A stretch of DNA of 42,260 nt from the NCBI GenBank assembly GCA_017444065.1, contig JAFSXJ010000106.1, positions 1 to 42,260 of the forward strand, in the 5' to 3' direction. Source of the DNA: Paludibacteraceae bacterium. GTDB taxonomy: Bacteria; Bacteroidota; Bacteroidia; Bacteroidales; Paludibacteraceae. How positions within the stretch are numbered: the first letter of the stretch is position 1; the number at the start of each line of letters is the position of its first letter. The translations under genes and the position numbers were made by a program. Below the pieces are notes generated by a model. That model did not search any database, was not told where the DNA came from, and saw only the letters and a list, made by a program, of their open reading frames with translations. Below are positions 40,426 through 41,583 of this stretch, one piece after another.

Positions 40426-40446
40426 GGTTGTTGTGAGAGGGGAGAT

Positions 40447-40509
40447 TAAGGTTTTTAGGGGCTTTAAGGTCCTTAGGGACTTTAAGGGCTTTATGGCCTT
40501 AAGGAGCTT
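40447..40509. repeat. TAAGGNCTT 9-base tandem array at the 3' end of the four-helix-bundle gene
   Basis: Seven consecutive 9-base units fit the near-palindromic pattern TAAGGNCTT: TAAGGTTTT, TAGGGGCTT, TAAGGTCCT, TAGGGACTT, TAAGGGCTT, TATGGCCTT, AAGGAGCTT. The last units overlap the stop codon (40499-40501) and the final codons of the minus-strand gene. The same word occurs upstream of the gene at 41088-41123. Confidence 0.85.
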
Positions 40510-41059
40510 TTGGGGTGGTGCCTCTTTGTTCGCTGCGGAGGCGGTACATTCGCTCGCTAAAACCTCCCTTCTGCATATAATCATCTCCGAGCCTTTGTAA
40601 TTGGCGAAAGAGCAGGTAGTCTGCCTGTTTGATGAGCACGATACACATGTTTGCTATCGTTTCTGCAGGACGCGTCTGAACAAGTTTCATAAAGAACTCG
40701 GCATCATTATGTTTCTTCCCCAATTCACGCATTGCCTCTAACTCTTCTGAACCGTCTTCCCACTGACGATGTCCGCGTGTCTTGAGATAATCCTTGTAAT
40801 CTTCCAGCAACTCCTGTAAACTGGCTTTCGCTACATTGATCAGTTTAATCTCTGTCTTCGCAGAAGTGGTGCTGGCAGCGCTTCCCTCTATGATATTCTG
40901 CTTACCGGAACGTGCAGCTTGTAACATTTGGTCGTAGGTTCGATCCCCTTTTGGCAGAAAATGCTCAACAAAGAAATAGGTCAGGCAATAAATCACATTC
41001 GTCTTCTGGTAACTGAGTAGTTTCTTGTAGTTGCCATTATGTGGGATAAGTTGCTCCAT
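40499..41059 (-). CDS. Four-helix-bundle suffix-domain protein (23S rRNA IVS / Avd-like family)
   Basis: The product is 186 residues and mostly helical. The first part, LSYQKTNVIYCLTYFFVEHF to SKTEIKLINVAKASLQELLEDY, is like the four-helix-bundle proteins first known from 23S rRNA intervening sequences. Members of that broad family include Avd, a helper of diversity-generating retroelements. The C-terminal part (ANMCIVLIKQADYLLFRQLQRL, then GGFSERMYRLRSEQ) is the suffix found in a Bacteroidota subgroup. The last residues, TPKAP, and the stop codon come from the TAAGGNCTT array. It has its own promoter, and the 5' leader holds a second copy of that array. No reverse transcriptase or rRNA gene is nearby. 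Function unknown; nucleic-acid binding is likely from the family. Confidence 0.88.
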   Translation of the reverse strand: MEQLIPHNGNYKKLLSYQKTNVIYCLTYFFVEHFLPKGDRTYDQMLQAARSGKQNIIEGSAASTTSAKTEIKLINVAKASLQELLEDYKDYLKTRGHRQWEDGSEELEAMRELGKKHNDAEFFMKLVQTRPAETIANMCIVLIKQADYLLFRQLQRLGDDYMQKGGFSERMYRLRSEQRGTTPKAP

Positions 41060-41087
41060 AATAGTAGGGAATAGTGTTTTTTTTATA

Positions 41088-41123
41088 TAAGGACTTTAAG
41101 GTCTTTAAGGTCCTTAATGATTT
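41088..41123. repeat. TAAGGNCTT 9-base tandem array in the 5' leader of the four-helix-bundle gene
   Basis: Three clear 9-base units (TAAGGACTT, TAAGGTCTT, TAAGGTCCT) and a decayed fourth (TAATGATTT). They lie between the predicted transcription start near 41126 and the start codon at 41059, so they would be transcribed in the leader of the gene's mRNA. Confidence 0.85.
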
Positions 41124-41132
41124 TTAATGCTG

Positions 41133-41164
41133 CAAAGATACAACTTTTATTTTTATTATGCAAA
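41133..41164 (-). promoter_or_regulatory. Bacteroidota promoter of the four-helix-bundle gene
   Basis: On the minus strand TTTG (41164-41161), 20 bases, TATCTTTG (41140-41133). It places the upstream repeat array at the very 5' end of the mRNA. Confidence 0.85.
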
Positions 41165-41235
41165 TTAAATTATTCAAAATAAATAAAATTTACAATTTTT
41201 AGTATTTGTGTGTGTTAGTAGGTATTAAAACACGA

Positions 41236-41497
41236 ACTGCTAAAGCATTTTTTGGACAATGTGCTTGGGGTGACCTTGGGTCGTTCTCGGTAGATGGTCC
41301 CGTGATGGTACTGTTTTAAATTCGACGATGAACTATACCGTTCTAGGCGGAGGCCGCTCTTTCCGAAAGCGGAAAGACGCTCCGGGTCCCGTGATGGTCG
41401 CGTGGAAGACCGGATGATATCCGGTGTAACTACCAAGAAAGAGCCGGTGCGGTTAGCGATCGAGATAAACAATACCATCCTGAGCTGGTAGTGTTTT
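41236..41497 (+). ncRNA. Candidate structured non-coding RNA with internal 14-base repeat
   Basis: A GC-rich block in strongly AT-rich surroundings, with several stems. CGGAG/CTCCG (41348-41352, 41380-41384) encloses TCTTTCCG-AAAG-CGGAAAGA (41358-41377). ACCGGAT-GAT-ATCCGGT is at 41409-41425. A near-perfect hairpin at about 41470-41492 is followed by a T-run, as in a plus-strand terminator. GGTCCCGTGATGGT occurs twice (41296-41309 and 41385-41398). The best open frame crossing it (minus, 87 codons) has no family resemblance. I see no consensus promoter, so strand and ends are uncertain, and it matches no RNA family that I know. Confidence 0.4.
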
Positions 41498-41529
41498 TGT
41501 GATCAAAAACAAATATTTTGGCAAATTAA

Positions 41530-41561
41530 TTTGCATAAGTAAAATTTTTGTTGTAAATTTG
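41530..41561 (+). promoter_or_regulatory. Bacteroidota promoter of the response regulator gene
   Basis: TTTG (41530-41533), 20 bases, TAAATTTG (41554-41561). Transcription would start near 41568, about 16 bases before the GTG start, so the structured block upstream is not part of this mRNA. Confidence 0.82.
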
Positions 41562-41583
41562 CATAAAATTTACTTGAGGGCTG

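Follow-up and report, generated by a model that had tools for sequence, protein, structure and literature searches.

Results

A four-helix-bundle gene between two repeat arrays

The window, by which we mean the whole 42,260-nucleotide stretch of DNA analysed, encodes a protein of 186 residues on the minus strand (40499–41059), and the gene has degenerate 9-nt repeat arrays at both ends. The 3′ array comprises seven degenerate 9-nt units (40446–40510) and includes the stop codon, a TAA (minus strand, 40499–40501) that falls within a repeat unit. The 5′ array, of three to four 9-nt units (41088–41117), occupies the interval from a promoter-like element to the start codon. Both placements had been proposed in a first-pass annotation, and both were recovered by Tandem Repeats Finder and by our array detector. 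The former reports the 3′ array as two overlapping calls, 40446–40487 (period 18, score 63) and 40454–40510 (period 27, score 77), and the 5′ array as 41088–41117 (period 9, score 46). The promoter-like element, TATCTTTG (41133–41140, minus strand), was read from the sequence and resembles the consensus of the Bacteroides -7 element; because it stands directly upstream of the 5′ array, this array is probably part of the leader. The same annotation described a single 9-base word repeated throughout both arrays. The 9-nt register holds, but the exact word TAAGGNCTT occurs just three times in the window (at 40483, 41088 and 41097; 0.6 expected, with at least three exact copies in 1 of 100 shuffles), and the remaining units are degenerate copies.

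Scanned against Rfam at gathering scores, the window yields a single tRNA, which places the gene outside 23S rRNA, and its neighbours are protein-coding. A 41-nt inverted repeat (78% complementary; 41131–41171 and 41523–41563) spans the interval between the gene and a response regulator gene, and the 14-nt word GGTCCCGTGATGGT occurs twice in this region, at 41296 and 41385. Response-regulator orthologues were considered as possible empty sites and rejected, as the best has 71% identity; inspection by eye of the regions upstream of 12 such orthologues revealed no intergenic sequence in common.

The protein matches the NCBIfam profile TIGR04258 (‘4helix_suffix’) with 75.9 bits (cut-off 40) and TIGR02436 with 29 bits (cut-off 24); its score against Pfam PF05635, 26.2, lies under the cut-off of 33.8. 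AlphaFold2 predicts an all-helical structure (pLDDT 87, pTM 0.80), in which the suffix domain (TIGR04258; 40523–40666, minus strand) corresponds to bundle helix 4 and the last short helix. The relationship to S23p proteins and to Avd that had been suggested at the outset is borne out by comparison of the model, which has the S23p/Avd four-helix fold, a bundle like those of XCC0516 and BT_0352. With Foldseek alone no match reached E ≤ 0.001; S23p entries ranked first, and VIA-align 2 confirmed them. A sequence search of solved structures returned nothing significant for the protein, no catalytic domain was found in it, and no Pfam or NCBIfam match to an HUH/Y1 tyrosine transposase appeared at E values up to 1. 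Some family members encode their own word within the protein itself, between the bundle and the suffix domain, as SSSTTSTTSTKSTTSTSS in L153, and arrays lie within the gene itself in L209, L215 and L217.

Arrays accompany the gene across the phylum

The family is present in 50 of 395 genomes of the phylum and in 24 of 61 genomes of the window’s genus. We collected 119 gene places in 118 loci: 46 loci from genome contigs (33 of these, with the window, make up alignment A1), 30 loci from a phylum-wide search, 40 further stretches (about 40 more of the phylum-wide places were taken in this form), the window itself, and L002, which holds a second copy from the window’s genome. Places with no start codon, no stop or a length outside 160–300 residues were dropped (22 of 119), which left 97 intact homologues. 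Arrays were called by lag autocorrelation, with at least 18 matches at a lag of 8–11 within a 27-nt window, a threshold picked from the detector’s own results table after the flanks had been inspected by eye; at this setting 212 arrays were detected in 511 kb of homologous loci, versus 8 in a dinucleotide-preserving shuffle.

An array lies within 250 nt upstream of 51 of the 97 intact homologues and within 250 nt downstream of 61 of the 94 with enough sequence, so the framing of the gene by its own repeat, as first seen in the window, is not a one-off. Arrays occur on both sides in 35 homologues, and 77 of 97 have at least one. Homologues that lack matching arrays had been named as evidence that would count against the idea, and they do exist as a minority: in 20 of the 97, neither side has an array detected within 250 nt. 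Most 3′ arrays start no more than about 20 nt from the stop codon. Elsewhere, 379 kb of the same loci contain 44 arrays, a density about 20 times lower than beside the gene, and a 3′ array follows 60 of 92 family genes versus 10 of 170 other open reading frames (Fisher 4e-25). Among the 51 upstream arrays, five or more represent other repeats, judged by period and sequence (period 11 in L002 and L003; period 8 in L011, L018 and L022), although the cognate 5′ array of CTAGACAA is also present in L002, where the detector reported another repeat. Four close relatives (L004, L005, L006 and L008) have a second array, with an 11-nt period, downstream of the 9-nt array.

The copies occupy varied surroundings. 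Among 15 Bacteroidales loci, hsdS lies upstream of the family gene in L007, L035, L042 and L045, and hsdR downstream in L007, L035 and L045. These copies sit within type I restriction-modification loci, those of L007, L035 and L045 between hsdS and hsdR. Other nearest neighbours are purH-like (L047), DUF1015 (L014), SpoU (L020), Fic (L005) and pyruvate phosphate dikinase (PPDK; L038) genes, and there is no reverse transcriptase among the 19 neighbour proteins scanned at these 15 loci. The family gene had no match in phage records, and a plasmid collection yielded one copy, on a Prevotella nigrescens replicon.

The word matches across the gene and differs between genes

The words on the two sides of a gene tend to match. 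In 48 non-redundant loci (<80% protein identity; 5 of the 97 had earlier been dropped for short flanks), the upstream and downstream flanks of the same locus share 390 7-mers versus 152 ± 21 when flanks are permuted, a value reached in 0 of 20,000 permutations. The result is repeated within the window’s own genus, where 28 of 39 places (two of the 39 belong to the window’s genome) were read with the same detector and reduced to 22 loci by dropping two and removing four identical to loci already used: 323 shared 7-mers versus 83 ± 19, again with 0 of 20,000 permutations. A 5′ array was found in 19 of these 22 loci, a 3′ array in 17, both in 15 and at least one in 21. Their words are highly varied (AATTAGACC, CCTAAATATG, CTAGTTTGT, CTCCGAGCCA, CCGGAATCT and others), and the cores seen across the words, CTTAAG, CTAG, CCGG, GATC and GTGGAC, are other than GTAG.

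The word follows the gene, not the genome, and it differs between lineages. The expectation that homologues would have different words holds even for paralogues: in 13 genomes that carry at least two copies (G205 was left out, with too few copies), the two flanks of one gene share 11.3 7-mers on average (31 values) and flanks of different paralogues 3.2 (50 values; 0 of 20,000 permutations). By eye, the four copies of G370 have the words TGGGAC, AAGGAC, GTGGAC and ATGGAC. Some copies do not show this; in G169, for instance, own flank pairs share 2 and 1 7-mers, as against 3 and 5 for cross pairs. These paralogue differences weaken the idea that arrays mark a genome, with the gene merely sitting in them. 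The idea that every small gene of these loci is bracketed in this way is weakened by control reading frames, both by the 3′ array counts given above and by flank matching: at least 10 7-mers are shared across 45 of 114 family genes versus 10 of 341 controls, a contrast that shrinks when the mark is lowered to 5 (69 of 114 versus 105 of 341). A KilA-N gene (L107, 7758–8627) has a longer duplicated segment in common to both sides, not a word array.

The second copy in the window’s genome (contig 14; L002, 1450–2010) has a word of its own, CTAGACAA, with period 8, on both sides, and its 3′ array begins in the stop codon. The contig 14 stretch (L107, 7500–8850, with L002, 1–3219) also carries KilA-N, ORF6N and Gp49/HTH genes amid duplicated segments, one of which codes MLTLGVGQMWG, and the ORF6N gene has AAAGTGCA repeats at both sides.

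Solo arrays away from the gene

The window’s word is hardly dispersed in its own genome, where two solo arrays were found. The pattern TTTAAGGNCNTTAAGG, with at most two mismatches, gives 24 matches versus 12 for a reversed control, made up of 8 at the window gene, 7 in the two solo arrays and 9 single matches, as expected by chance. One solo array lies in frame inside a gene on contig 98 (L105, 4226–4306), where the repeat, coding LKDLSDLRDLSDPKDP, gives an insert that reads LKDLSDLRDLSDPKDPKAP in a variable-length loop; the other lies between a stop codon and the start codon of the next gene on contig 101 (L106, 3990–4046). Judged by their sequences, the gene that holds the first array is presumably miaA and the gene that follows the second is presumably ychF. 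None of the 24 miaA orthologues of the genus that were aligned (24 of 56 other genomes with a match) has the repeat, including the two nearest (79 and 78% identity).

Dispersal is clear in another family of the phylum, f19, which may be the green sulfur bacteria. Three words (GTGGAC, TGGGAC and ATCNGAC) were counted in 86 genomes of its genera g65 and g60, 65 of them in g60, as overlapping three-unit matches, so that one long array is counted several times. GTGGAC occurs in 35, TGGGAC in 41 and ATCNGAC in 34 of the 86. The GTGGAC pattern (GTGGACNNN)x3 reaches 116 matches in G173 (reversed control 1) and 107 in G370 (control 0), and the 65 genomes of the sister genus g60 have 0–13 matches each. 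Twelve GTGGAC arrays were located in 14 chosen stretches of G173: six touch a stop codon (within 5 nt), two lie 44–48 nt behind one, three fall within a called reading frame and one lies between divergent genes.

The solo words occur mostly in genomes that hold family genes. The sum of the three words has a median of 16 in the 39 genomes with a family gene and 0 in the 47 without a detected gene. Arrays in genomes without the gene had been named in advance as a finding that would speak against a self-contained unit, and this is borne out in part: solo arrays are common, and 20 of these 47 have at least one match; most of the 20 (14) have just 1–5 matches, and six (G110, G121, G153, G106, G145 and G299) have 16–46. 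ATCNGAC is found in each of the 18 genomes that have a subfamily-E gene (assigned by hand: 44–52% identity to L153 over nearly the full span, open frame of at least 250) versus 16 of 68 without. The association holds within g60 (11/11 versus 5/54) and is not significant within g65 (7/7 versus 11/14), and since the genomes are related, Fisher values for these counts overstate independence. GTGGAC is tied to its own gene more loosely than ATCNGAC. At least 40 GTGGAC matches go with a gene of at least 83% identity to L153 in G173, G315, G370 and G291, and with part of the gene in G157. Five further GTGGAC-rich genomes have no gene of at least 80% identity to L153: G020 (77 matches), G036 (59), G378 (59), G276 (58; best gene 71%) and G382 (42).

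One site in several states

The site downstream of a lipocalin gene was compared in 21 g65 genomes. In G173, G291, G370 and G315 the order is lipocalin gene, GTGGAC hairpin array, family gene, second array and ABC transporter gene, and in G157 and G193 the family gene at this site is recognisable in part only. Six genomes (G052, G110, G063, G106, G276 and G114) have the ABC gene 50 to 125 nt on, with the family gene absent. By eye, the vacant site holds one small GTGGAC hairpin in G052 and one hairpin with ATGGAC-like units in G276; in G110, G063 and G106 it holds a plain terminator whose stem is formed by GTTGTGGA/TCCACAAC. In the remaining nine genomes, the ABC gene is either about 620–1,260 nt off (six) or not seen in the locus (three). 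The lipocalin site would be compatible both with insertion at a hairpin and with deletion by recombination between arrays, and gain and loss would look alike here. The vacant terminators of G110, G063 and G106 hold word-like stems, so arrays may grow from local terminators.

Folding and pairing of the arrays

As RNA, the arrays fold better than shuffles on average, with a mean z of -2.8 upstream (27 arrays, 15 below -2) and -2.9 downstream (25 arrays, 14 below -2). In the window the 5′ array reaches -3.2 and the 3′ array only -1.5. Single arrays fold alone, in agreement with the first-pass proposal that they can pair with themselves. It had also been proposed that the two arrays pair with each other, and this survives in part: summed over loci, an upstream array pairs better with its own downstream array than with foreign ones (0 of 10,000 permutations), but the own downstream array ranks anywhere from 1 to 46 of 48 as a partner, so a stem across the gene is weakly supported. 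The flanks themselves are biased, as GGAC and GTCC occur 124:86 upstream and 60:124 downstream (92 loci). The fold data fit RNA and single-stranded DNA alike, and arrays of near-palindromic words fold by nature.

Discussion

Genes of the family tend to carry a near-palindromic 8–10 nt word of their own, whose arrays sit at the 5′ end of the gene, at its stop codon and, in some members, in frame between bundle and suffix domain. Our preferred reading, for which we judge the chances evenly balanced, is a unit of gene and cognate repeat, in which the protein would recognise its word and the word, as a hairpin, would settle at the 3′ ends of genes. Its safest part is the pairing of a gene with a cognate repeat, which the gene-specific words matched on both sides show. 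The co-divergence of word and gene argues strongly that the protein recognises its own word. Mobility of the unit, and a spread of arrays driven by it, are suggested less firmly by the solo arrays, the varied contexts, the scattered distribution and the lipocalin site. The gene may be what makes or spreads the repeat. A bolder form of this reading, which we put forward tentatively, is a class of selfish units of gene and repeat. In each, a four-helix-bundle protein with the S23p/Avd fold, assembled as a ring, would recognise a private 8–10 nt word, would drive arrays of it to the 3′ ends of genes and even into reading frames, and would change to a new word, along with both flanking arrays, as lineages split.

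How might such a unit work? By analogy with XCC0516 and Avd, the S23p-like protein is probably a ring, and it would recognise the word as a hairpin, in RNA or in single-stranded DNA. This recognition could help arrays to settle at the 3′ ends of genes and to bring the gene along, with the chemistry possibly supplied by a host enzyme or by one that belongs to another element. If the two arrays of one copy recombined, the gene would be lost and a solo array would stay behind.

Could the protein instead be a regulator and the arrays its binding sites, with nothing mobile? It would bind hairpin arrays in untranslated regions and control its own mRNA, the solo 3′ arrays would be its regulon, and word and protein would co-evolve like operator and repressor. 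The arrays lie at the stop codon and probably within the 5′ leader, which fits this, as do their better-than-shuffle folding and the frequency with which solo arrays of G173 touch stop codons. A regulator accords poorly with a distribution as scattered as that in the genus and the phylum, with the varied insertion contexts, with arrays that lie within reading frames such as miaA, and with presence and absence at one lipocalin site, and we consider it unlikely.

Hitchhiking is a poorer prospect, and one that we regard as improbable. Here the arrays would be ordinary terminator or minisatellite hairpins grown by slippage, beside which the gene settles or survives, with no recognition by the protein. 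The plain terminator with a similar stem at the vacant site of G110, G063 and G106 fits this, and the words do occur in six genomes without a detected family gene, with GTGGAC in four more that lack its own subfamily (G020, G036, G378 and G382). The match of the word across the gene, the difference between paralogues of one genome, and the rarity of such arrays or matches at other genes of the same loci all speak against it. Very improbable, in our judgement, is an RNA element in the manner of an intervening sequence (IVS), with 5′ and 3′ arrays paired across the gene into one long stem cut by RNase III as in 23S rRNA: the protein fold is the same, the flanks lean towards GGAC upstream and GTCC downstream, and a passage in PMC4990558 describes the IVS as an S23p reading frame between inverted repeats, but the own downstream array is often not the best partner, many loci have one array only, single arrays fold alone and the window gene lies outside rRNA.

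The unit of gene and cognate repeat that we favor has partial counterparts among known systems. Integron gene cassettes consist of a gene followed by a hairpin site and are inserted beside another such site, a layout shared with the arrangement here; unlike cassettes, the family has arrays on both sides of the gene and gene-specific words. Avd of diversity-generating retroelements shares the fold, whereas the scanned neighbours of the family gene include no reverse transcriptase. The closest layout is that of REP/RAYT, yet the unit is a member of no family that we found. In REP/RAYT (REPtrons) and TIRtrons, as here, a gene is flanked by its own repeat and the repeat is dispersed through the genome, clearly so in the family of G370 and slightly in the window’s genome. 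A section of PMC3733652 describes the REP/RAYT gene as flanked by the repeat, which is dispersed as hairpins that lie near the 3′ ends of genes or, at times, within them. RAYT itself is a tyrosine transposase, and its REPs carry a GTAG tag, in contrast to the four-helix bundle and tandem array of a gene-specific 8–10 nt word described here.

The IVS of 23S rRNA with its S23p protein (IVP) resembles the arrangement in protein fold and in bracketed layout. It differs in that the family gene lies outside rRNA, has word arrays in place of a single stem, is matched by solo arrays elsewhere and encodes a suffix domain. Portions of PMC4990558 describe the IVS as an S23p reading frame between self-complementary flanks and call it selfish; in the Coxiella IVS, three tandem heptamers stand just before the S23p reading frame and are reminiscent of the 5′ arrays reported here (PMC4990558). 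Elsewhere, a figure legend in PMC10910872 names the 23S rRNA IVP in connection with CRISPR-linked adaptation modules, and a phage table in PMC5524665 includes a four helix bundle gene. No description of the present arrangement was found in the open-licence PMC literature searched.

As of 2016, S23p/IVP proteins are given as without known function in a passage of PMC4990558. The match of the word on both sides of the gene, together with the differences between paralogues, points to sequence-specific recognition by these proteins, and the matched and mismatched arrays provide ready-made substrates for recognition tests. If the favored reading is true, it would explain where the degenerate tandem-repeat families of these genomes come from, and the unit would be a case of a repeat and a gene kept together without a known transposase.
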